A DNA stretch of 64,000 nt, from assembly GCA_018401705.1 (NCBI GenBank), contig JAGYKL010000014.1, positions 1 to 64,000 on the forward strand, in the 5' to 3' direction. The translations under genes were made by a program, and so were the position numbers. Positions 3,798 to 60,774 of this stretch are shown piece by piece (the first letter of the stretch is position 1; the number at the start of each line of letters is the position of its first letter). A model generated the notes under the pieces. The model did no database searches, was not told the origin of the DNA, and saw nothing but the letters and a program-made list of their open reading frames with translations. The stretch comes from Bacteroidia bacterium. GTDB lineage: Bacteria > Bacteroidota > Bacteroidia > M30B66.

Positions 3798-4818
3798 ACC
3801 CGTTGTGCGGTTGAATTTGTACATAAATAAATAGAAATAAGGTTGCGCATTAAACTGATATACAGTATATTAGAAGAGTTCTCACACAATTCCAATATGC
3901 ACAACCTCATTACGAATATAGCAAAGTTCCGTAACCTCTTAACTGATTGCTATGGTGTTGATAATCTGACAAATGGAAATTTCAGAAACTATTCTAACCA
4001 ACCTAAAGCATCTGATATTGAGATAATTGCACTTACATTGGCTGCTGAATCTCAAGGGATTATTTCGGAAAATAATCTGTTTCAGATTCTGGAATCAGAT
4101 TATAAAAGTTATCGCCAAACACTACCTGACCGCTCCAATTTCAATCGAAGAAAAAGAGCTTTACGACCATTTATTGATGAATTGAGCAGTAAGGTTTCAG
4201 ACGAATTAAATATTGGCCAAGAAACATATATTATTGATTCTATGCCTTTACCAATTGCTCGATATGCGAGAAAGAACAAAATTAAAATCATGATGGAAGA
4301 TTTGGATTTTAAACCTGCGATTGGGTATTCTGCCATCGACAAAACTAATTTTATAGGATATAAACTGAATCTAACTATAAGCTCAATTGGAGTTATAAAT
4401 AATCATGCAATGACCCAGGCAAATGTTCATGATGTTAAAACATTAGAAATGATGACTAAAGGATTTATTAACGACGTCAAATTGCTTGGAGACAAGGGTT
4501 ACATTGCTAAAGATGTGCAACTTAGTCTTTTTAAAGAATTTAATATTAGGGTGATCACACCACCTCGAAGCAATCAAATAGGGCCATCGATTTGGTCTCC
4601 GAAGGATCGGCGCCTTAGGAAGAGAATAGAAACTACATTCTCACAATTCTGCGATCAATTCAGAATAAAGATAAATTTTGCAAAGAGTTTTCATGGCTTC
4701 TACACACGAATCGTCACTAAAATAGCAGCATTTACATTTCTCCAATACTTGAATTATTTGAATGAGAAACCAATAAATAAGATTAAAAATGCGCTATCTT
4801 TCTAACCGCACAACGGGT
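3798..4818 (+). mobile_element. Complete IS982-family insertion sequence (1021 bp)
   Basis: Perfect 15-bp terminal inverted repeats (ACCCGTTGTGCGGTT at 3798-3812; its complement at 4804-4818) enclose one transposase gene, and 7-bp direct repeats flank the element. The size and ACCC ends fit the IS982 family. Perfect ends, an intact transposase and an exact target duplication indicate a recent, potentially active insertion. Confidence 0.92.
3897..4805 (+). CDS. IS982-family DDE transposase
   Basis: A protein of 302 residues if started at the ATG at 3897, whose N-terminus MHNLITN is typical of the family; an in-frame TTG at 3843 would add 18 residues. The DDE triad is visible: Asp in YIIDSMPLP, Asp in LLGDKGYI and Glu in RKRIETTFSQF. 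It catalyses cut-and-paste movement of its own element. The frame is complete and ends one base into the right terminal repeat region. Confidence 0.9.
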   Translation: MHNLITNIAKFRNLLTDCYGVDNLTNGNFRNYSNQPKASDIEIIALTLAAESQGIISENNLFQILESDYKSYRQTLPDRSNFNRRKRALRPFIDELSSKVSDELNIGQETYIIDSMPLPIARYARKNKIKIMMEDLDFKPAIGYSAIDKTNFIGYKLNLTISSIGVINNHAMTQANVHDVKTLEMMTKGFINDVKLLGDKGYIAKDVQLSLFKEFNIRVITPPRSNQIGPSIWSPKDRRLRKRIETTFSQFCDQFRIKINFAKSFHGFYTRIVTKIAAFTFLQYLNYLNEKPINKIKNALSF

Positions 4819-4825
4819 TAAAATC
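4819..4825. repeat. Target-site duplication, right copy (TAAAATC)
   Basis: Exact copy of the 7 bases left of the IS, adjoining the right terminal repeat. Confidence 0.85.
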
Positions 4826-5413
4826 AATTATGAATTTAAGAAATATATTCAGTTTTTCAAGCAAGTTTCAAAATCAAGACGAAATAATTTTGCGAGATTA
4901 CTTTAGCTCTTGAAAGGACAAAACTAATGAAAGAACTTTGTTGTCTTATATCAGATCTTCACTGTATCTATTTGCTTGGTGGCATAGCAATTATTCAATT
5001 AGATGGTTTTGAGAGTATTAAATTTTTAGTACGTTTCTCTAGGACTTACAATTTCTTTGGTCATAATAGGCGTTTATAGATTTCAAAAATTAAACAAACA
5101 ATTAAAGAACTATTATTTACAGATTGAGTCAATGATTGAGAAAACAAAAAGTGAATTTTGATACATATTTTTTCAGTCTTGTTACATAATCGCTAATCTT
5201 TAATTCATTCCCGTTTGTAAGATTGACTATCGGACTTGATGTGCAACCATCTTCAAACAAAGATACAGCTCTTAGCTGTGGTCGATGTTTTTGCGAACGA
5301 AGTACCATCGAGTATTGGAGGAAAAAATTAAGTAATTATGTATCTAAATCAAAAAGCATGAGCAGGGAATAAAGTCTAAAAAATAATGGGATGGAGCTTT
5401 GATGATAATATGA
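4826..5413. other. Decayed accessory DNA without an intact gene
   Basis: No long frame survives in any direction. The piece at 5030-5161 (plus strand) still reads like the C-terminus of a small membrane protein: a hydrophobic stretch LTISLVIIGVYRF and then a charged helix NKQLKNYYLQIESMIEKTK before a TGA. It looks like gene debris of a former island between the IS and tRNA-Asp. Confidence 0.4.
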
Positions 5414-5590
5414 AAGTGTCAACGCAGCCCAAAAGGTGTTGTTGAACAGTCCCTGGTAGAAAGAGAAAATTTAATTTCTGAATCGAATAAAAATGTAGAT
5501 GAGGTTTGGGTAGTATTTGATAAAGATGACGCCGATAAAGTAGATGCGACTTTGAAGAATTTTGAAGATGCTTTTGAAATGACTGTCTAA
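5414..5590 (+). pseudogene. Fragment of an RloB-like (phage-defence-associated) protein
   Basis: The frame opens just after a TGA and runs 58 codons to a TAA. It contains DEVWVVFDKDDADKV followed by a helix with FEDAF. The [DE]VWxVFDxDD signature is, from memory, the hallmark of the RloB family, which occurs with the ATPase RloA in restriction and abortive-infection loci. Intact RloB proteins are about 200 residues. Both the N-terminal and C-terminal parts are missing, there is no start codon, and no partner ATPase remains. I infer a relic of a defence island that once sat beside the tRNA-Asp gene. The family call rests on one motif. Confidence 0.5.
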
Positions 5591-5674
5591 TAAAATTACG
5601 TTAGTAAAGTAACTTTACCAAACCTATCTAAGACTAGATCACTATGTCCCCTTCTATGTCCCCCTAAAATAAAT

Positions 5675-8765: not shown

Positions 8766-9782
8766 TCAAGAAATATCCAGATCTGAGAACTTTTTCTTGC
8801 CTCTTAAAAAGTAATCTGCGACAATTGATCCCATGTAAACGCCACTTGTATTTCTTATGCTTTCAACCTTTTTAAGTTTCCTCCTCTTTTGCCTAATTGA
8901 TGGCAGAAGTCTATAAAAATGTAAATGCGCTCTTAGAATAGCATAGAAGTGGCTAAATCCATTGGTAAAAAGAAATTTAAATGCGGCAACACCATCTAAC
9001 AACATCCTTTTTAACAAGCTCCTTATCAAATACTTATCCTCAATATTCTTATAAATCAATTCTAAATTATTTCTAAAATTAAGATAGGTCTTCCTCCAGT
9101 TTGATTTGGACAATGTTCCGCCACCAATATGGAAAACAACAGATTCGGGTTGTACCAAAATTTTATATCCACGATTTTTCATGCGCCAGCATAAATCTAT
9201 TTCTTCCATATGCGCAAAAAAGCTTTCATCGAATCCTTGGCAATCATGAAAAACGCTTGATCGAATAAACATACAAGCACCTGATGCCCAGAAAACCTCT
9301 CGAATATCGTCGTACTGACCTGTGTCAATTTCTGTTTCTTCAAAAATTCTTCCACGACAAAAAGGATAGCCCATTCGGTCGAGATAACCTCCTGCAGCAC
9401 CTGCATATTCGAATCTGTCTCTTTGCTTAAATGCCCTTATCTTTGGCTGAATAGCAGCTATCTGAGAATCTGAATCAAATAGTTTCTCAATTGGCTTTAT
9501 CCAATTTTCGGTAACTTCAATATCAGAGTTTAAAAGCACATAAAATTCTGCATCCACTTGCCTAAGGGCTTCATTATAACCGCCAGCATAGCCATTATTA
9601 GTAGGATTAACGATCAGCTGCACTTGTGGGAAGTTCTCCTGAAGCCATTTTACAGAGTTGTCAGTAGAATTATTGTCAGCGACAACAACCTTAGCATCTT
9701 CGGAGAACTGAATGACTTTAGGTAAAAATTGCTCTAAGAGGTGACATCCATTCCAATTTAATATAACGATAGCAGTTCTCAT
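8766..9782 (-). CDS. Family 2 glycosyltransferase
   Basis: 338 residues. The GT-A fold occupies the first ~250: TAIVILNWNG, VVADNNSTDNSVKWL, FYVLLNSDIEV (the metal/nucleotide-binding Asp) and ASGACMFIRSSVF followed by GFDESFFAHMEEIDLCWRM. This subgroup resembles rhamnosyl- or other deoxyhexose transferases that act on polysaccharides. The C-terminal ~90 residues are basic and could touch the membrane. It overlaps the LpxL-like gene by 4 bases, so the two are co-translated; together they point to cell-envelope glycolipid or lipopolysaccharide assembly. The donor sugar cannot be read from sequence. Confidence 0.88.
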   Translation of the reverse strand: MRTAIVILNWNGCHLLEQFLPKVIQFSEDAKVVVADNNSTDNSVKWLQENFPQVQLIVNPTNNGYAGGYNEALRQVDAEFYVLLNSDIEVTENWIKPIEKLFDSDSQIAAIQPKIRAFKQRDRFEYAGAAGGYLDRMGYPFCRGRIFEETEIDTGQYDDIREVFWASGACMFIRSSVFHDCQGFDESFFAHMEEIDLCWRMKNRGYKILVQPESVVFHIGGGTLSKSNWRKTYLNFRNNLELIYKNIEDKYLIRSLLKRMLLDGVAAFKFLFTNGFSHFYAILRAHLHFYRLLPSIRQKRRKLKKVESIRNTSGVYMGSIVADYFLRGKKKFSDLDIS

Positions 9783-10570
9783 TCAAGACGTTTATGTTTC
9801 CATCTTTTATGAGACCAAAGCCAAGCTGGAGGATATTCCATGATTAATTTTTCTAATGCTTTTGCATGAAGCCGAGTTATTTCGCCATCACTGCTTTCAG
9901 CAGGATTCTCGTGCAATATCTCAAATTCTACTGAATAATGCCCTCGTTTTTCTCTTCGCATAGCCAAGAAAACAAGTGGATTATTCTTAGCCTTAGCAAT
10001 TCTTTCAGGCCCGGTAAAGCAAGGAGTGTCTTGATTTAGAAAAAGTAGCCAGTTTGCATGTCTAGGGTCAGGCGCCTGATCTGCTACAAGTAATGTTGCC
10101 AAAGGCTCTTTCGATTGCATAACAGATCTATAGGTATTATTCATTGTTACAAGCTCGGTACCGAGCGATTCTCTGACATTCTTCATAACCTTATCCATGA
10201 GCTTACTACTTAATGGTTTGTAGGTTACCATACTTTTCATATTAAATAGTCCAGCCATTGAAACTCCCAGCCATTCCCAATTATTGTAATGACCTGAAAC
10301 AGCTATAAAACCTTCATTATTTTCCTTTAGTCTATCAAGTACTTCAGGATTTTTCAAATACACTCTTTTAAGAAGTAATTTTTTATTTAGAAGGTATTTC
10401 AGGAGACAGGAAAAAGAGTTTCTGTAAAAATTCTTGGTAATTTGTTTGTATATTTTTCGGACTTTGGGAAAAGCATTTTTTAGATTTTCCAAAATAACAT
10501 CCTTTCTATAAGCTATAATATTATTGGCAAACCAAGCTAAAAAGTCTGAAAGACTATATAGTATTCTCAA
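9779..10570 (-). CDS. LpxL/HtrB-like lysophospholipid (lipid A) acyltransferase; 5' end frameshifted
   Basis: 263 residues from a TTG at 10570. The acyltransferase motif SGHYNNWEW and later LVADQAPDPRHANWLLFLNQ with GPERIAKA match the LpxL/HtrB family, which transfers an acyl chain to lipid A at the inner membrane. The family normally has an N-terminal anchor of about 20-30 more residues. Those are still readable upstream of the TTG (RRRFLLAQVPLRILYSLSDF), but no start codon exists in that frame, while an ATG at 10661, just after the preceding gene, is in another frame. The true gene is therefore probably 9779-10661 with an indel near 10.6 kb. Its 3' end is coupled to the GT2 gene. Confidence 0.82.
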   Translation of the reverse strand: MRILYSLSDFLAWFANNIIAYRKDVILENLKNAFPKVRKIYKQITKNFYRNSFSCLLKYLLNKKLLLKRVYLKNPEVLDRLKENNEGFIAVSGHYNNWEWLGVSMAGLFNMKSMVTYKPLSSKLMDKVMKNVRESLGTELVTMNNTYRSVMQSKEPLATLLVADQAPDPRHANWLLFLNQDTPCFTGPERIAKAKNNPLVFLAMRREKRGHYSVEFEILHENPAESSDGEITRLHAKALEKLIMEYPPAWLWSHKRWKHKRLE

Positions 10571-10681
10571 AGGAACTTGAGCAAGCAGAAACCTCCGCCT
10601 CGAATAAGGTAATACAGAATAACTGTCTTGAGTATCGAATTTTGTTGGATTTGGCGTTCATGATGAGGGAGTAACTCTATC

Positions 10682-12085
10682 CTATTTAATATCATTTGTT
10701 TGTGTGTCTCTCTTCAGAATAAGAAACTGCCATTGGTCATTCATTATTTCACCAAGAGCATCTGAATGAATAAGGGTATAATCATTTGTGACTAAGTCTA
10801 AGAGAATACGAAACGTCTATTGCTTTGATTGTTAATTTTATAGTACTGCCATTTCATAGGGATATGCAGAAGGCTCATATGTACTGGGATAGTTCTATTA
10901 TCGGGTGGACCATACTGTAGGTAAACTCTACCTCTATCAGTATTATATCCTCGTTTTATGGATGAGGCGAATTCTGTTTGCACCTTAATAACTTCTGAAC
11001 GATATTTCTCCCAAGCTTCTTTGAGGATTTGCCGATGAGCGATTTAACTAAAAAGACAAGAAGTACTGTTTCATGAGTTCAAAATCTCCCTCTTTAATTA
11101 CATTCTCTGAATACTGTTTTTCTCTTTCTGCTGATATTGGTCTTAAAGCTCTGATATGTTCGGTAAGGCTATCTTTGTTCTTATATCCTTGGGTAAAGGT
11201 CCCTTCGGTGACCAAAAGGTCAATGTTGTTTAAGTTGACTGCCAACCCTGGATTAGCGCGAATAAATTCTTGAGACTTAGTACCAAGTAAATTGTTTTCT
11301 CGGTCTCTAGCCTCAATAACAAGTCTGTAAGCTCCGTTTGGCAACTCAGAAATATCTATTTCTTTCATGAAGACATTTACCATTGCGGAGTTAGCCTTCT
11401 CGAATCCGGTAAATTGTGCTATCGTTCTAAACGAATTGAGTTCCTCAATATGAAACTTAATTAAGTACTTTTCTCCTTCTCCTAATACACCGAGGGAGTT
11501 ATACGACTCGTTATAAAAAATAAGTTTGTTCTCATCACTGCCAAAAAACTCGCTAATATGAGGAACCAAATCATATCCTCCTTTAGACAAAGGTCCTGGT
11601 TTAATGGTTTTTGTATAAGATTCAACCAACTGAATATCAGAAAGCCAAACTGAGTCGGTAGGGATATCTATAATTAATTCTGAAGTAGCCTTTACCGGCT
11701 CTGCATTGGTAAGCACATCTCTAACTTCTAAACCAAGCTCATAACTACCTTCAGACAAGGGAATTCTTTGCTGATCGATAAAATTAAATCCGATATTTAA
11801 TGAATCATCAGCCTCTGGGCTGGAAAGAATATATTTATCGGCATATCTTATTTTATCACCTTGTGAAGCTATGAGGGTAACCTCAACTTTACCTTGATAC
11901 TTTCCTGATTCATTCTTTATAAAGTTTACACTTGAACCTCTAACCATTAGGTAAGTTTCTACATAAGGTGTTTTTCCACCCATTAAAAACACACCTCTGG
12001 AAAAAAGAGCTTGCACTTGCTGTGCAGAAACCTGACAGAAAGGATTTAATAATAAAATGCTTAAAGCTGCAAAGAATTTAACCAT
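10682..12085 (-). pseudogene. GWxTD-domain protein, interrupted by nonsense and frameshift changes
   Basis: The intact first part (11048-12085, 345 residues) has a signal peptide ending in VSAQQ, followed by beta-rich extracellular-type domains. The family's C-terminal GWxTD domain follows but is broken. A stop (TAG at 11048-11050) stands where the context YFLSF-x-LNRSSANP suggests Trp; one extra A is needed near 11020 to read EAWEKYRSEV; then RGYNTDRGRVYLQYGPPDN is intact. Two single-base losses near 10.87 kb garble the expected YPYEMWQYY, and a last shift near 10800 separates FVF from LDLVTNDYTLIHSDALGEI. With these repaired, the frame ends at 10682, 21 bases before the acyltransferase ATG. 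GWxTD proteins are envelope proteins of unclear function in Bacteroidota. Confidence 0.75.
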
Positions 12086-39349: not shown

Positions 39350-39770
39350 GAACTTAGCTACGAACTATTACATCGCATAAACGCTGCATTATTAATTCGT
39401 GCTCTTTGTTACGAATCCTAATAAATCGAAACTGATTTGTTCAAATCAATTTTGAAAGAAGCTTCCGATGGAAAGACTAAAATGCAACTTGGCACCCATT
39501 CAATTATGCGATTTAAACTATTGACCTAAAATGTAATCTTTTTGAAACAATTAATTAAACTAAAGTATAGCAAGCTGATACTCACAATCATGTATCAGAT
39601 TTACTAATCTGAAACAAACTTTTCAATAGGATAAATTTCCAAAAGCACTGCTTTTATTAATAAAAGAGCAGGTGCGGTTTCAATTGTAAATTGCTGTGTG
39701 TAAGTTTCCAAAAATCTTAGTGTTAAATTATTTACATTAACACCTTACAAATCCACATACAATTAAATCA
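39350..39770. other. Gene-free leader of the S8 protease gene
   Basis: About 420 AT-rich bases with no credible gene. It contains an imperfect, nearly loopless hairpin: GCACTGCTTTTATT (39645-39658) against AATAAAAGAGCAGGTGC (39659-39675) with two bulges. This could end the cyclase transcript or fold in the leader of the downstream protease mRNA. A long leader before a large T9SS cargo gene is noted, nothing more can be said. Confidence 0.4.
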
Positions 39771-42700
39771 ATGAAGAAAAATCTACTAAAATGGCTTTTT
39801 ACTTTATGCGTTTTCTCCCTTTTTTCGGTGCTAAATGCAGGTGAAGTTGAATCTTACGGGCCTCATGGCAAAAACCAATTCAAAGAGGCATCGGATAGAA
39901 TACTTGTTAAATTCAACTCAGGTATCAGTTTTGAAACAAAGCTCCAAATTCTGTCCAAAGAATCAAATATCCTACCTCTATCAAAAGATGATGTGTTACC
40001 AGCTCCAGATGTGAGCATTGTAAGGACTAAAAACCTCAGTGATTCTGAAAGAACAGCCTTACTTGAAAGATTGCAGCAGGTTCCTTCTGTTGAATATGCA
40101 AATCCGTTTGTTATATATAGTGACGGAACCTATCAGGGAATACAAGACCGAATTATTATCCGTCTAAAGAGTCAGAAAGACCTCATTAAGATTTCAGACA
40201 TGGCGGTGGAATTCAACTTAACTATTCAAGAAAAGAATGAATTCGACTCCTTTGTTTACGTTCTAAAAACTTCAAAACAAACAGGAGCTAATGCACTTGA
40301 AATTGCCAATAAAATTCATGAAAAAGGAGTTTTTGAGTATGCAGAACCTGACTTTTTGCTTTTGCTGAATCGTTTTTCTACAAACGACCCTTTGCTTCCT
40401 AATCAATGGTCATTAAATAATACAGGATCTTCAGCTCAGTATAATGGAACAGCTGGTGCCGATATGGATATTTTCAACGCTTGGGGGATTACAAGTGGAA
40501 GTTCAACCATTAAAGTTGCTATTATTGATGAAGGAGTTGATTTAAATCACCCTGATTTACAGGCAAATTTACTACCAGGCTATGATGCTACTGGGCTGGG
40601 AAGCAATGGCGGCCCATCTGGCGATGATGCTCATGGTACTGCATGCGCAGGGATAGTGGCAGCAGTTGGAAATAATAATTTAGGAGTTTCAGGGGTTGCC
40701 TACAATTGCAAAATTATTCCGGTGCGTATTGCCTATAGCAATACTTCTGGTAATTGGGTAACATCTAATACCTGGATTGGAAACTCTCTTAACTGGGCAT
40801 GGCAAAATGGAGAAGCGGATGTTCTTAGCAATTCTTGGGGAGGAGGTAGTTCTTCATCTACAATTAATAATGCTATAACTGGAGCCGTAAACAACGGACG
40901 AGGTGGTTTAGGCTCTCCTGTTCTATTTGCAGCGGGAAATAGCAATGGGGCTAATAGTTATCCTGCAACAGAAGTGAATACAATTTCTGTAATTGCAATG
41001 AGCATGTGCTACCAAAGAAAGAGTCCATCATCTTGTGATGGCGAAACATTCTGGGGTTCAAATTATGGTAATGGAGCTGATGTGGCAGCACCAGGAGTTA
41101 AAATTGCAACAACAGATATATCAGGTACTTCAGGTTATTCTTCAGGAGATTACACAGGGACCTTCAATGGAACTTCGAGTGCTTGCCCTAACGCAGCTGG
41201 AGTAATGGCACTAATTCTTTCAGCTAGCCCAACTCTTAGTCAAACTCAAGCAAGGTTCACTTTAGAATCTACTTGCGAAAAAGTTGGCGGATATACTTAC
41301 AACTCGAATGTATCTGGTCAACCAAACGGAACTTGGTCTAATGATTTAGGATATGGTTTGGTAAATGCTTTTCAAGCTCTTCAATCCATTACTCCTCAAG
41401 CACAAACAGATGCAGGAATTTCATTGATTAATGCTCCTGATGGTTCATATTGCATTAGCACCCTAAGCCCTTCTGTAACTTTAAAAAACTATGGAACTAA
41501 TGCTTTAACGAGTGTTATAATTAACTATCAGATTGGCAGTAATCCAGTTCAAACATATCAATGGTCCGGAAATCTTGCAAGTACGAATAGCACTGTTGTA
41601 ACACTGCCAAGTCAGAATTTCCAGAACGGTAGTTTCTCATTCTTGGCCTACACTTCGAGTCCTAATGGCACTTCTGATGAGTTGACTACAAATGACAGTA
41701 GAACTTCATCATTTACTATTGCAAATAATCCACTTACACTCACAATAGTTCTGGATAATTATCCGAGTGAAACGAGTTGGTCTATTTTGGATGGAAGTTC
41801 AAATATTGTTGCCTCTGGAGGCACATACAGTGGCAGTGCTCAAGGCTCGACGGTTATTGAGAATCTTTGCCTTTCTGATGGATGTTATACTTTTATCATG
41901 AACGATTCCTATGGCGATGGTATATGCTGCGCATATGGAAATGGAAGCTACACTTTAACTAAAGACTCTGATGGAAGTGTTCTTGCATCAGGAGGAGCAT
42001 TCACTTTCTCTGAAAGCACAGGATTCTGCGTTCAGGAATCTAGTCCTCTATCAGGAAATGTTGTTTCCACTACAAATGTTAGCTGTTTTAATGGAAATAA
42101 TGGCTCTGCTGAAGTTGAAGCTCAAGGAGGAACTTCTCCTTATTTCTACTCATGGAGCTCCGGGCAAAATACAGCTGCGGTGAGTAATCTTGCTGCAGGC
42201 ACTTACACTGTCTCAATCACAGATAATGCTGGCTCACAAGTCAACGTACAAGTAACAATTACTCAACCAAGCCTTCTATCTGCAAATGCAAGCTCACAAT
42301 CGGCAACTTGTTTTGGCAGTAGCAATGGTTCAGTTTCTTTGAGTGTTTCAGGAGGAACTGCTCCATACTCCTATAGTTGGTCAAATGGAAGTAGTTCTCA
42401 AAACTTAAATGGTGTTGGATCCGGTTCATACTCTATAGTTGTTTCCGATGCTAATGGTTGTTCTACAAATGCTTCTGCAAATGTTAGTCAGCCTGCGAAT
42501 ATATCTGCTTCAGCTTCCTCAACAGATGCTAGCTGTAACGGAGCAAACGACGGTTCTGTTTCTCTTAGTGTTTCTGGAGGAACAACCCCATATTCATATA
42601 GCTGGTCAAACGGAGCAAGTTCTCAAAACCTAAGCAATGTAGGAGGAGGTTCTTATTCTGTTGTAGTTACAGATGCAAATGGATGTAATGCTAATACTTC

Positions 42701-42995
42701 AGTAAATGTTAATACAGGAGATACACCTGTACAACCTGAACTCGCTTGCTACGAAACAGCATCGTTCAATACGACAACTTGCTCTTGGGAAGTAAGCGGA
42801 GATATGCCGGCTCAACCAGCAATTGCTTGTTATGAAACAGCATCGTTCAATACGACAACTTGTTCTTGGGAAGTAAGAGGCGATATGCCAACTCAACCGC
42901 AGATTGCTTGTTATGAAACAGCTTCTTCAATACGACAACTTGCTCTTGGGAAATGGCAGAGTATGCCCGACCAAGCCAGCAATTGCTTGTTATGA
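39771..42995 (+). CDS. Secreted S8 (subtilisin-like) serine protease, N-terminal part of a repeat-interrupted gene
   Basis: Signal peptide (LFTLCVFSLFSVLNAG), an N-terminal inhibitor-like prodomain (~40-200), then the subtilase domain with Asp253 (VAIIDEGVDLNHPDL), His288 (GDDAHGTACAG), oxyanion Asn390 (AAGNSNG) and Ser469 (FNGTSSACPNAAG): a complete triad. Next come a CARDB-like domain, a DSYGDGICCAYGNGSY domain, and three SprB-type repeats (SVSGGTAPYSYSWSNGSS). From ~residue 985 the 27-residue CYETASFN repeats begin. The frame breaks in the third repeat and stops at 42995. The C-terminal part in the same frame resumes later and ends at 47012, so I read 39771-47012 as one gene, 7242 bases or exactly 2414 codons including stop. 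Confidence 0.88.
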   Translation: MKKNLLKWLFTLCVFSLFSVLNAGEVESYGPHGKNQFKEASDRILVKFNSGISFETKLQILSKESNILPLSKDDVLPAPDVSIVRTKNLSDSERTALLERLQQVPSVEYANPFVIYSDGTYQGIQDRIIIRLKSQKDLIKISDMAVEFNLTIQEKNEFDSFVYVLKTSKQTGANALEIANKIHEKGVFEYAEPDFLLLLNRFSTNDPLLPNQWSLNNTGSSAQYNGTAGADMDIFNAWGITSGSSTIKVAIIDEGVDLNHPDLQANLLPGYDATGLGSNGGPSGDDAHGTACAGIVAAVGNNNLGVSGVAYNCKIIPVRIAYSNTSGNWVTSNTWIGNSLNWAWQNGEADVLSNSWGGGSSSSTINNAITGAVNNGRGGLGSPVLFAAGNSNGANSYPATEVNTISVIAMSMCYQRKSPSSCDGETFWGSNYGNGADVAAPGVKIATTDISGTSGYSSGDYTGTFNGTSSACPNAAGVMALILSASPTLSQTQARFTLESTCEKVGGYTYNSNVSGQPNGTWSNDLGYGLVNAFQALQSITPQAQTDAGISLINAPDGSYCISTLSPSVTLKNYGTNALTSVIINYQIGSNPVQTYQWSGNLASTNSTVVTLPSQNFQNGSFSFLAYTSSPNGTSDELTTNDSRTSSFTIANNPLTLTIVLDNYPSETSWSILDGSSNIVASGGTYSGSAQGSTVIENLCLSDGCYTFIMNDSYGDGICCAYGNGSYTLTKDSDGSVLASGGAFTFSESTGFCVQESSPLSGNVVSTTNVSCFNGNNGSAEVEAQGGTSPYFYSWSSGQNTAAVSNLAAGTYTVSITDNAGSQVNVQVTITQPSLLSANASSQSATCFGSSNGSVSLSVSGGTAPYSYSWSNGSSSQNLNGVGSGSYSIVVSDANGCSTNASANVSQPANISASASSTDASCNGANDGSVSLSVSGGTTPYSYSWSNGASSQNLSNVGGGSYSVVVTDANGCNANTSVNVNTGDTPVQPELACYETASFNTTTCSWEVSGDMPAQPAIACYETASFNTTTCSWEVRGDMPTQPQIACYETASSIRQLALGKWQSMPDQASNCLL

Positions 42996-45203
42996 AACTG
43001 CATCGTTCAATACGACAACTTGTTCTTGGGAAGTAAGAGGCGATATGCCAACTCAACCGCAGATTGCTTGTTATGAAACAGCTTCTTTCAACACAGCTTC
43101 TTGTTCTTGGGAAGTAAGTGGCGAAATGCCAGCTCAACCGCAAATTGCTTGTTATGAAACAGCATCGTTCAATACGACAACTTGTTCTTGGGAAGTGTCG
43201 GGAGAAATGCCGGCTCAACCAGCAATTGCTTGTTATGAAACAGCATCGTTCAATACGACAACTTGCTCTTGGGAAGTAAGCGGAGATATGCCGGATCAAC
43301 CAGCAATTGCTTGTTATGAAACAGCATCGTTCAATACGACAACGGGAAGTAAGCGGAGATATGCCGGATCAACCAGCAATTGCTTGTTATGAAACAGCAT
43401 CGTTCAATACGACAACTTGCTCTTGGGAAGTAAGCGGAGATATGCCGGCTCAACCAGCAATTGCTTGTTATGAAACAGCTTCTTTCAATACTATCTCTTG
43501 TTCTTGGGAAGTAAGTGGAGAAATGCCGGCTCAACCAGCAATTGCTTGCTACGAAACAGCTTCTTTCAATACTGCTTCTTGTTCTTGGGAAGTAAACGGC
43601 GATATGCCAGCTCAACCGCAGATTGCTTGCTACGAAACAGCTAACACTATCTCTTGTTCTTGGAGGTTACTGGTGAAATGCCGGCTCAGCCAGCAATTGC
43701 TTGTTATGAAACAGCTTCTTTCAATACTATCTCTTGTTCTTGGGAAGTGTCGGGAGATATGCCAGCTCAACCAGCAATTGCTTGTTATGAAACAGCATCG
43801 TTCAATACGACAACTTGCTCTTGGGAAGTGTCGGGAGAAATGCCGGCTCAACCAGCAATTGCTTGCTACGAAACAGCTTCTTTCAATACTGCTTCTTGTT
43901 CTTGGGAAGTGTCGGGAGACATGCCAGCTCAACCGCAGATTGAATGTTATGAAGTTGCGAACTTCAATACCATTTCATGTGCATGGGAAGTAAGTGGATC
44001 GGCCACTGAGCCACCGAATATAGCTTGTTATGAAACGGCTACTTTCAATTCTGAATTGTGTCAGTGGGATATTACAGGTGAAATGCCGGCTCAACCAGCA
44101 ATTGCCTGCTACGAAACAGCTTCTTTCAACACTATCTCTTGTTCTTGGGAAGTAAGCGGTGATATGCCGGCTCAACCGCAAATTGCTTGCTACGAAATAG
44201 CTTCTTTCAACACTATCTCTTGTTCTTGGGAGGTTACTGGTGAAATGCCGGCTCAACCAGCAATTGCCTGCTACGAAACGGCTACTTTCAACACAGCATC
44301 TTGCTCTTGGGAAGTTACTGGCGAAATGCCAGTTCAACCAGAACTTGCATGTTATGAAACAGCTACTTTCAACACAGCATCTTGCTCTTGGGAAGTTACT
44401 GGCGAAATGCCAGTTCAATAACTTGCATGTTATGAAGCAACTACTTTCAACACAGCATCTTGCTCTTACAGGAGTTACTGGCGAAATGCTACAGTTCAAC
44501 CTGGAGTACCTGCTACAGTAGCTTCTTTGTAACACTATCTCTTGTTCTTGGGAAGTGTCGGGAGACATGCCGGCTCAACCAGCAATTGCCTGCTACGAAA
44601 CGGCTACTTTCAACACAGCATCTTGCTCTTGGGAAGTTACTGGCGAAATGCCAGTTCAACCAAGGCTGCATGTTATGAAACGGCTGCTTTCAACACAGTA
44701 TCTTGCTCTTGGGAAGTTACTGGCGAAATGCCAGTTCAACCACTTGCATGTTATGGCGCAACTACTTTCAACACAGCATCTTGCTCTTGGGAAGTTACTG
44801 GCGAAATGCCAGTTCAACCGCAGATTGCCTGCTACGAAACAGCTTCTTTCAACACTATCTCTTGTTCTTGGGAAGTGTCGGGAACATGCCAGTTCAACCA
44901 GAACTTGCATGTTTACATAGAGCGGCTACTTTCAACACAGCATCTTGCTCTTGGGAAGTTACTGGCGAAATGCCAGTTCAACCGCAGATTGCCTGCTACG
45001 AGCAGCTTCTTCAACACTATCTCTTGTTAGGAGTGTCGGGAGACATGCCAGTTCAACCAGAACTTGCATGTTATGAAACGGCTACTTTCAACACAGCATC
45101 TTGCTCTTGGGAAGTTACTGGCGAAATGCCAGTTCAACCAGAACTTGCATGTTATGAAACAGCTACTTTCAACACAGCATCTTGCTCTTGGGATGTAAGC
45201 GGT
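42723..45203 (+). repeat. Tandem array of ~31 81-bp units encoding a 27-residue repeat
   Basis: Each unit encodes CYETA(S/T)FN-xxx-C-S-W-E-V-(S/T)-G-(D/E)-M-P-x-Q-P-x-(I/L)-A. Counting the CYE codons gives 31 units starting at 42747 and ending with the one at 45150. Nineteen of 30 spacings are exactly 81 bp. The others deviate (79, 73, 74, 78, 83, 80, 80, 78, 80, 84, 75), a net loss of 27 bp, divisible by three. An in-frame TAA appears near 44418. Units 16 and 17 (43945, 44026) are clearly diverged. The two Cys per unit could form disulfides in a surface stalk. Reverse-strand frames here are shadows. Confidence 0.92.
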
Positions 45204-47012
45204 TCCAACATTACAACTTCTATTTCGACACAAGACGTAAGCTGTAATGGCGGTAACGATGGTTCAGTTTCCTTAAGTGTCTCTGGAGGAAATGCACCTT
45301 ATTTATTTAGCTGGTCTAATGGAAGCAGTTCAGCAAATCTAAGCGGTTTGGGAGCTGGATCTTATTCTGTTGTTATTACTGATGCTAACGGTTGTTCTGC
45401 AAATGCTTCTGCAAGTGTTTCTCAGCCTGATGCAATTGCTATTTCATTAACATCTGCAAGTGTAACTTGCGATGGAAATGATGGAGGGGTTTCTTCATCT
45501 GTGAGCGGAGGAATATCTCCTTACTTATATTCTTGGTCTAACGGATCATCATCATCAAGCATAAATGGCTTGGCAGAAGGAAGCTATACCTTAACTGTAA
45601 CTGACGCGAATAATTGTGAAAGTAGCAGCTCTATTAATGTAATAACTGATTGTGATCCAGGAGGATGTACTTATGTAACCATTGACTCTAATGATTTTGA
45701 AAGTGGGTTCGGTATCTGGAATGATGGTGGAGTTGATTGCGCTAGAATAAACAATGCCACTTACGCTTCCAGCGGAAACTTCACTGTGAGATTACAAGAT
45801 GATACCGAGGAGTCTGTTGTTACAACCAACGAACTAAACCTTTTAGGCTTCACAGAACTTACAGTTGCATTTAACTATGTTCCAGTTAGCATGGATAATG
45901 CTAATGAAGATTTTTGGCTTCAAGTATCATATAACGGAGGTGCTACATTCTCAACAATTGAAGAATGGAATCTAAATGATGAATTTGTAAACAATCAAAA
46001 TTATTCTGAATCTGTAACATTCCAGGGTCCATTTAATGCCAACACAATGTTAAGATTTAGATGCGATGCATCAGGAAATGCTGACTGGGTTTATATAGAT
46101 GACATTGTAATTACAGGTTGTCAAGGTGAAATTATCCCGAGTTGCACTGATGGTGTCCAGAATGGAGATGAAACTGGCATTGACTGTGGAGGAGCTAATT
46201 GTGTTCCTTGTGCAACGGGTTGCGTTTACTCTGATATTAATTCAAATAATTTTGAAGGAGGTCTTGGTATATGGAATGATGGTGGTGGAGATGCTGCTTT
46301 AGTTTCTAACTCGAATTACGCAACTAGCGGATCTATTTCTATGCAACTCAGAGATAACTCAGGAATTCAATCTTCTATGACAACTGATGATATTGACTTA
46401 ACGGGTTATTCTGAACTAACCGTTAGCTTTAATTTTGTTACTGTTAGTTTCGAAACTAATGAGGATTTTTTCCTTGAATATTCTCTAGATGGAGGAGTTT
46501 ACTCTAATCTTGCTACTTACCAGCAAGGAAACAACACGCAAAACGGTATTGCCTACACTGATGCAGTTGTTATTCCTGGTCCTTTTACTGCTACAACATC
46601 TATCCGTTTTAGATGCGACGCATCTGGCAACAACGATTGGGTATATATTGATGATGTGGTGATTTCAGGTTGCTATAACGGAGTTGGCAACAGAGTTGCA
46701 ATTGAGAGCCCTGCTTCAACGTCTCAAACTAGTAAAAGCCTGACACGCAATGCGGCTAAGTTTGACTTTGATTTATTCCCTAATCCGGTATCTGGCTTGA
46801 TGAACGTAAGATTGATTAATTTGAATGACGTTGATTATCAAGTAAAGATTACTGATATGTCAGGCAAACTAATCGAAATCAGCAATCTTAGCATTCAGAG
46901 AAATGGAGATAGAATTACATTAGATTCTGATAAGCTTGCTTCAGGTTTATACAATATTTCAGTTCATACTCAAACTGAGGTTTTAAGTAAACGATTTATT
47001 GTTCAACATTAA
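44703..47012 (+). CDS. C-terminal part of the S8 protease gene: last repeats, SprB repeats, T9SS sorting domain
   Basis: The frame is the same as that of 39771. It is open from inside the array, first garbled, then clean from about 45036. After the last CYETATFN units come two SprB-type repeats (SVSGGNAPYLFSWSNGSS; SVSGGISPYLYSWSNGSS), two jelly-roll/MAM-like modules of similar sequence (SNDFESGFGIWNDGG and SNNFEGGLGIWNDGG, each ending WVYIDDIVI or WVYIDDVVI) separated by a Cys-rich linker CTDGVQNGDETGIDCGG, and a T9SS tail (DFDLFPNPVSGLMNVRL, LASGLYNISVHTQTEV). Not an independent gene: it has no signal peptide or start. Confidence 0.85.
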   Translation: MLLGSYWRNASSTTCMLWRNYFQHSILLLGSYWRNASSTADCLLRNSFFQHYLLFLGSVGNMPVQPELACLHRAATFNTASCSWEVTGEMPVQPQIACYEQLLQHYLLLGVSGDMPVQPELACYETATFNTASCSWEVTGEMPVQPELACYETATFNTASCSWDVSGSNITTSISTQDVSCNGGNDGSVSLSVSGGNAPYLFSWSNGSSSANLSGLGAGSYSVVITDANGCSANASASVSQPDAIAISLTSASVTCDGNDGGVSSSVSGGISPYLYSWSNGSSSSSINGLAEGSYTLTVTDANNCESSSSINVITDCDPGGCTYVTIDSNDFESGFGIWNDGGVDCARINNATYASSGNFTVRLQDDTEESVVTTNELNLLGFTELTVAFNYVPVSMDNANEDFWLQVSYNGGATFSTIEEWNLNDEFVNNQNYSESVTFQGPFNANTMLRFRCDASGNADWVYIDDIVITGCQGEIIPSCTDGVQNGDETGIDCGGANCVPCATGCVYSDINSNNFEGGLGIWNDGGGDAALVSNSNYATSGSISMQLRDNSGIQSSMTTDDIDLTGYSELTVSFNFVTVSFETNEDFFLEYSLDGGVYSNLATYQQGNNTQNGIAYTDAVVIPGPFTATTSIRFRCDASGNNDWVYIDDVVISGCYNGVGNRVAIESPASTSQTSKSLTRNAAKFDFDLFPNPVSGLMNVRLINLNDVDYQVKITDMSGKLIEISNLSIQRNGDRITLDSDKLASGLYNISVHTQTEVLSKRFIVQH

Positions 47013-57108: not shown

Positions 57109-57280
57109 TATTACGTATTACGTATTGCGATGTATGTACGATTCTCGTTGTACGTTATACATTGTACGTTATACGTTGTACGTTATACGTTGTACGTTAT
57201 ACATTGTACGTTATACATTGTACGTTATACATTGTACGTTATACGTTATACGTTGTACGCTGTACGTATTACGTTGTACG
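57109..57280. repeat. Heptamer tandem array (TTGTACG / TTATACR)
   Basis: From 57148 to 57280 the sequence is exactly 19 contiguous heptamers, mostly alternating TTGTACG and TTATAC(A/G). A looser leader of TATTACG-like heptamers starts at 57109, with one 4-base irregularity at 57130-57133. Non-coding by my reading: the frames inside it are low-complexity artefacts. Confidence 0.9.
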
Positions 57281-59049: not shown

Positions 59050-60774
59050 ATGATAAAACTACAATACTAATCATATGCTTTATTCTTTTATCAGAATAGC
59101 CAAGCTTAGCAAACATCATTTCAATTTGGAGAAACCTATTCGATTAAAGAATTCCTGCCATATGAAATCATAGGCGAGAACAAAACAGATTATATTGTGA
59201 CTTGTAAAAATAAAAAATGGCTTTTTAAGGACAACAACAACTTAGAGGTATAAAATATTATGCAGGAATAAGCATTGCATTTGTTGACAAATCCACACTG
59301 TCAATAACCAAAATATTAGCTCTTCCTAAGTTCCAGGCAGAGTCAATCAAGAAAAAGGCTTATCCCTTTACTCACGGAGTGATTTTAGTGGAGATACAAT
59401 ACATGTTATAACGTCAATTTGGGACAAATCGGAAAAAAATTATGCAGTACATGTTTGGCCCATAAATTTAAATTCACTTGAACCCTATACACCAAGTCCA
59501 AAGCTACTTGCCAGAATACCAGATAATGGCAAATATATTTATACACAAATTCAATTAAAACATTTTGAAAAATCGCGTGAAAGGGTTCTATTATATACCG
59601 AAACCAATAAAAAACAAAATCAAAATTTCTTAATATTCTTCATTTAAACAATGAGTTTGCGTTACTTAAAAAAGATAGCATTACTTACTTAGAAAATCAA
59701 CATTGGCAGGGTTTGAAGCATATTGATTCAGATTCAGTAGGTAACATTTTCATTTTAAGTGGCTTTGCAGAAGTTTCCTCACCTGATTGGCAAGATTCTC
59801 GCTGGTTAGAACTTCAAATGATTCCAGCAAATGGAGGTGTAATAACTTCCACAAAAATAAACACTACTGAGGGAAACGCATTTAATGGCAATATTTGTCA
59901 GAATTCCTCAGGAGATTTATTTGTGTGTGGATACTATTCGTCTTATTCAGAACCCAAGGCTGGCGAAAAAGAAGTTTTTGGAGGCTCGTTTATAGCTCAG
60001 ATCTCATCTTTTTCAGGTGAAATGCAGAAAATAGAAGAAAAGGAGCTTAGCGATAATCAGAAAAAAGCATTATACCCTTCGAATTTAAATCCTAATTCAA
60101 TTATCTCTATTTACGGAACCATTAATAATCTAAAAGTTAAAGAGTTAGATGTTGACCAGAATGGAAATATCACAATGGTAGGAGCGGTTGAAAGCTCATC
60201 TACTTATACCACTCAGCGTACGAATTACGAATATAGTACAACTTATTACGAGTCAAACTCAGTATTTATTTCCAGATTTAGTCCCTCATTAACAGTATTG
60301 TGGCAAACTATAGTTCCGAAAAATGCTTCTATAACTGATTTTAACGGCATTTTAGAACCACTAATTTATTTCGATAAAGGAACCACGACTTTATTATTTA
60401 ATGATCATTCAAAAAATATTTCTGTAATGAATCATTTGGCAAATGGCACTGTTCCAGATTTAGATTCTTTGGATACATCTTTTAACGCTACCACGCCTGT
60501 TGATTTACCTCCTAGCAGTTCTGATGAAATATTAACCATAAAAGGTTGGCAGCAAGATCATACAACTCTAAGAAAAACAACAATTGACTCCAGCGGTAAA
60601 TGGAAGGTCTCCTGGATTAATTTGGAAAAATCAAAAGAATCTGATAAAAATGCAATACTGGAAACTTCATTGCTTTATATAGATGAAGAAGGCAATATCA
60701 TTTCATGCGTTTACCCTAAATATGGCGCGTTAACTAATATGCAATCAGCAGCTGTAGTCAAGATTCTAAAATAG
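59050..60774 (+). pseudogene. Frame-broken secreted protein, probable propeller-like family
   Basis: From the ATG at 59050 the frame can be followed through two in-frame stops (TAA 59068-59070, TAG 59107-59109) to FGETYSIKEFLPYEIIGE and CKNKKWLFKDNNN, stopping at 59251. The reading then shifts (KYYAGISIAFVDKS), shifts again (GDTIHVITSIWDKS to RVLLYTETNKK), and finally continues as a clean 353-residue frame from 59713. SQA just before the TAG looks like a signal-peptidase site, with CAG changed to TAG. The C-terminal part has repeated strands such as DVDQNGNITMVGAVE and TIDSSGKWKVSWI, as in Bacteroidota beta-propeller secreted proteins. No T9SS tail. The exact family is not recognised. Confidence 0.6.

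Follow-up and report, generated by a model that had tools for sequence, protein, structure and literature searches.

Dense frame-breaking lesions across a GWxTD-domain gene and an acyltransferase gene in a Bacteroidia assembly, very probably a patch of uncorrected long-read sequence

The window analysed here is a 64,000-nucleotide stretch of a Bacteroidia genome assembly (GCA_018401705.1, contig JAGYKL010000014.1, positions 1 to 64,000), in which two neighbouring genes are broken within a short patch (Table 1). The first encodes a protein of the GWxTD-domain type and the second an acyltransferase of the kind used in lipid A biosynthesis. The C-terminal domain after which the first gene is named is present, but it is found solely within a piece that is out of frame with the rest of the gene. 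The phrase “GWxTD domain” was not found in the literature searched.

Table 1. Coordinates of the genes and damaged stretches within the window
Feature	Positions	Strand	Evidence
GWxTD-domain gene, intact N-terminal part (345 codons, stops at TAG)	11048..12085	-	Open frame; 29 longer uninterrupted orthologues
Out-of-frame piece with most of the GWxTD domain	10798..11043	-	PF20094 E 2.4e-7; TIGR04514 E 8.2e-10
Lipid A biosynthesis-type acyltransferase gene, intact part	9779..10586	-	PF03279 E 3e-31
Damaged patch, GWxTD gene end and acyltransferase gene start	10587..11050	-	Frameshift-aware alignments to relatives
Second damaged stretch, indels breaking the frame of an 81-nt tandem-repeat array inside a secreted subtilase-type gene	42906..45065	+	Array; unit rows; broken frames; domains
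Third damaged stretch, early part of a gene running to ~60,772, with at least three frame changes	59068..59630	+	Two homologues
Possible fourth stretch, RloB-like fragment (5,396-5,596) with stops	4806..5610	+	ORF desert; partial RloB match; weak alignments

Matches to the GWxTD gene were found in 31 of the 39 other genomes searched. The 29 that had been given a locus were translated, leaving out the two weakest matches (G024 and G036), and each of the 29 occupies one uninterrupted frame from stop to stop, 489–735 codons long. These frames extend approximately 140–150 residues past the point at which the frame in the window stops, and the part that the window frame lacks is the GWxTD domain. 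An earlier, sequence-only reading of this DNA had proposed checking whether orthologues read through the damaged part; every translated orthologue does, and because of this the lesion cluster is more than chance. The acyltransferase gene directly follows the GWxTD gene in eight of eight family genomes (G002–G009), and in one of these, G009, it was matched across a TAA.

The lesions were called by frameshift-aware alignment against the proteins of nine relatives, and a second set of alignments used four references for the end of the GWxTD gene and four for the start of the acyltransferase gene. The sequence-only reading had listed at least five lesions, and each was recovered. Its stop in place of tryptophan is the TAG at 11,048–11,050, called with all nine references and aligned with Trp in all nine relatives; its one surplus A near 11,020 corresponds to a net gain of one nucleotide at 11,020–11,023; around 10.87 kb, where it had wanted bases added, lie two frame changes, a net gain of two (equivalent to a loss of one) at 10,881–10,893 and a net loss of two at 10,852; and its shift at about 10,800 is a loss of approximately 4 nt. 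These four frame changes were again called with nine of nine references. The sixth in the series, a shift within 10,662–10,699 whose position varies with the reference in the nine-relative alignment, was placed at 10,687 by all four references of the second set. Three of those four add a frame change at about 10,638. At the start of the acyltransferase gene, where a shift near 10.6 kb had been claimed, a frame change was called at 10,587–10,590 with four of four references, the fourth of which puts an additional shift at 10,618. The earlier list was therefore slightly short: the 464 bases contain a single nonsense codon together with six or seven frame changes, or 15 to 17 lesions per kb. These indels are dense, confined to one block and extend across the gene boundary, as would be expected of a long-read patch that escaped correction.

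Genes released from selection are expected to accumulate more substitutions than indels. Taken together, the pieces of window protein that the first six lesions delimit (112 residues) show 72–79% identity to the eight family orthologues, which over the same part are 67–95% identical among themselves (28 pairs), the values for the pieces being biased slightly upward by the exclusion of the lesion codons. In the preceding part of the gene the window protein is 46–56% identical to the eight orthologues, and these are 44–93% identical to each other. Because the identity between lesions lies within the range found among relatives, the damage in the patch is, judged by this protein comparison, one of indels without a visible excess of substitutions. 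The same comparison gives no sign of relaxed selection on the remaining sequence.

In the patch itself we found no notable repeat, merely short two-copy families (74–92% identity) and short inverted pairs, and no structured RNA or tRNA at gathering thresholds. A change in base composition was considered and rejected, the GC content in 250-base steps (0.30–0.38) being inside the range of the surroundings. A search for a second copy in the same genome found none, the sole DNA match being the region itself. A contig scan for further assemblies from the same species or genus, which reaches close relatives only and may omit the genome itself, gave no relative, and one other genome of the genus (73% complete) contained no match to the region.

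The statement of the sequence-only reading that everything on either side of the patch is intact holds for 11,051–12,085 and for approximately 9,779–10,586; it fails for the window as a whole, which has further clusters at 42.9–45.1 kb and 59.1–59.6 kb. A large secreted subtilase-type gene at 39,741–47,012 carries SprB repeats, a sorting tail and approximately 30 copies of a 27-residue repeat, and its domains are of the subtilase, SprB-repeat and Por secretion-tail types. The corresponding 81-nt tandem array extends over 42,714–45,198; the net indel is not a multiple of three in 7 of 32 unit rows, and the frame in this region is broken into overlapping pieces. Frame breaks aside, the array resembles a repeat that has expanded naturally. 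In the gene that ends at about 60,772, comparison with one homologue gave three frame changes in 59,236–59,627 and comparison with a second gave four over roughly that interval, both homologues being merely 29–30% identical overall. The RloB-like fragments at 4.8–5.6 kb give a partial RloB match, with alignments too weak to separate a patch from a true remnant. An intergenic tandem array with a 14-nt unit (9.6 copies, 90% matches) lies at 57,146–57,280.

Together with the window, 20 other stretches of the same genome provided a sample of 453,512 of 3,744,417 bases (approximately 12%), most of which is readable. ORF deserts of at least 600 nt occupy 25,652 bases of this sample at 17 places, and 5,184 of 392,023 bases at 6 places in the relative G003. 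Some deserts are ordinary, such as that of stretch L069, which contains two intact short frames. Ribosomal RNA as a cause was not found in the window or in eight of the ten other desert-bearing stretches, the remaining two being L053 and L057. An ab initio frame-switch scan scores dense patches as non-coding and was excluded from the evidence. Comparison with homologues, which covered approximately 50 kb, gave six frameshift junctions, five of them within the blocks described here and one isolated, a count of low sensitivity that is an underestimate, as one junction was detected in the known patch. The isolated junction is a frame change relative to G003 at approximately 8,170 of L068, in a gene that is presumably helix-hairpin-helix-like.

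A 3.6-kb block on contig C4 (L060, 3,180–6,754) lies between two long intact frames; dense frame changes hit at least four neighbouring genes in it, and four neighbouring genes of G003 match it solely in switching frames. The 7.5-kb block on contig C7 (L064, 7,854–15,364) consists of three successive deserts that contain pieces of MeaB, UPF0758_N (RadC type) and PurL-type domains (AIRS_C, FGAR-AT_linker), and dense indels in it break meaB, a radC-type gene, purL, a purB-like gene and sucD. The purB-like gene is so named because it belongs to the Lyase_1 family and sits next to sucD, and it would be purB; the two stand side by side in four of four genomes (G003, G005, G006 and G008). Lesions number 13 over 859 nt for sucD (15.1 per kb) and 18 over 1,088 nt for the purB-like gene (16.5 per kb), densities close to that of the patch, and a single intact sucD aligned as a control showed 0 lesions in 867 nt. 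The type of lesion varies between genes, being mostly loss in sucD (11 of 13) and about balanced in the purB-like gene. Of the aligned residues of sucD, 231 of 293 are identical to G003. Additional ORF deserts lie in L061 (13,982–17,277), L067 (17,671–19,641), L063 (4,255–5,910) and L058 (17,191–18,377); they contain fragments that look coding but switch frame, and are probably further patches.

When the whole genome was searched with TIGR01019, sucD was found as four broken pieces on C7 and nothing else. Four of five other genomes have an intact sucD that scores above the TIGR01019 cut-off; none was found in the fifth, G002, which is 80% complete. The Lyase_1 family gave a weak piece at the C7 place and two partial frames above the cut-off, one at the end of contig C12 and one on C51; these match different parts of the domain and would represent another lyase. 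Genes that a living cell should keep, sucD and the purB-like gene, are damaged alike, as expected of an artefact.

Because adjacent core genes are hit together without decay of the protein, we regard the patch with high confidence as an artefact of sequencing or assembly. The lesions are a genuine observation on the deposited letters, but the patch is almost certainly not a real biological feature. Approximately 460 bases of error-prone long-read sequence would have entered the contig and been left uncorrected next to accurate sequence, and the other stretches of the assembly, of approximately 0.5 to 7.5 kb, would be artefacts of the same kind. We infer both the long-read origin and gap filling as the route: accurate contigs may have been bridged or filled with raw long reads, the likeliest course together with a long-read assembly in which polishing failed locally. 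Hybrid tools that begin from short reads may leave raw long-read fill. In the organism both genes are most likely intact and would encode a GWxTD-domain protein of approximately 490 residues followed by the acyltransferase. A point against an artefact is that the patch lies in no notable repeat, so there is no evident reason for a gap there. The differences in lesion type and the ordinary nature of some ORF deserts also weigh against it.

The sequence-only reading had set an uncorrected long-read patch beside fresh pseudogenisation, in which a recent burst of small indels truly broke the GWxTD gene and the acyltransferase start in this strain. The latter is very unlikely. It would agree with the broken frames of the deposited sequence and with a genome that has no second intact copy, but the protein between the lesions is not decayed, the damage has sharp limits on both sides, and like damage is found in the adjacent core genes of C7 and in the sole sucD found. 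The predominance of indels, the lack of excess amino-acid change and the crossing of a gene boundary strongly favour the long-read patch, as does the recurrence of blocks of such density across adjacent core genes. It is implausible as biology that adjacent core genes would be lost jointly without protein decay, and loss of sucD, purL and the purB-like gene in one block is not expected while sucD stays 79% identical to another genus. Misassembly of several strains, or a chimeric contig, could also have scrambled the consensus of a genome that is divided into 95 contigs and may come from a metagenome bin. This too is highly improbable, as most differences between strains with functional genes should be in-frame substitutions and not indels that break the frame once per 60 bases, and a 7.5-kb block over several genes would be unexpected. 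That the lesions are real and belong to a lineage with blockwise indel mutagenesis, acting on stretches of 0.5 to 7.5 kb with approximately 15 indels per kb and few substitutions, is barely conceivable.

If the patch and the related blocks are artefacts of uncorrected long-read sequence, their value is as a quality warning for this genome and they have no biological significance. The genome is rated 98.5% complete, yet several blocks are unreadable as genes in the 12% sampled. Automatic annotation would probably call sucD, purL and the purB-like gene missing or pseudogenes, and through the C7 block the annotated genome would appear auxotrophic or TCA-deficient. Metabolic models or claims of gene loss built on this assembly would be wrong.

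Passages of PMC12007338 and PMC8575027 describe how indels in long-read assemblies split genes, giving frameshifts and premature stops that mimic pseudogenes, and PMC8575027 shows a case in which an indel divides a gene and transcription continues through the break. The gene-splitting, pseudogene-mimicking frameshifts and stops found here are the same as in the long-read bacterial assemblies of those passages; the errors described there are spread throughout, whereas here they come in blocks and most of the sampled sequence can be read. The benchmark figures in PMC8157722 are approximately 1–2 indels per 100 kb for short-read-first assemblies and 265–481 per 100 kb for long-read-only assemblies. 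The hybrids of that benchmark thus carry few indels, in contrast to the 15–17 per kb of the patch and the C7 genes, and the greater density of the blocks tells against a simple fit. Because this density is far above the benchmark rates, the blocks look like single raw reads rather than the usual consensus. According to the descriptions in PMC11261854 and PMC8157722, the hybrid metagenome assemblers OPERA-MS and hybridSPAdes start from short reads and then add long reads, and a run of OPERA-MS described in PMC11261854 had polishing disabled. Tools of this kind would yield accurate contigs joined by long-read sequence, as is proposed for this assembly.
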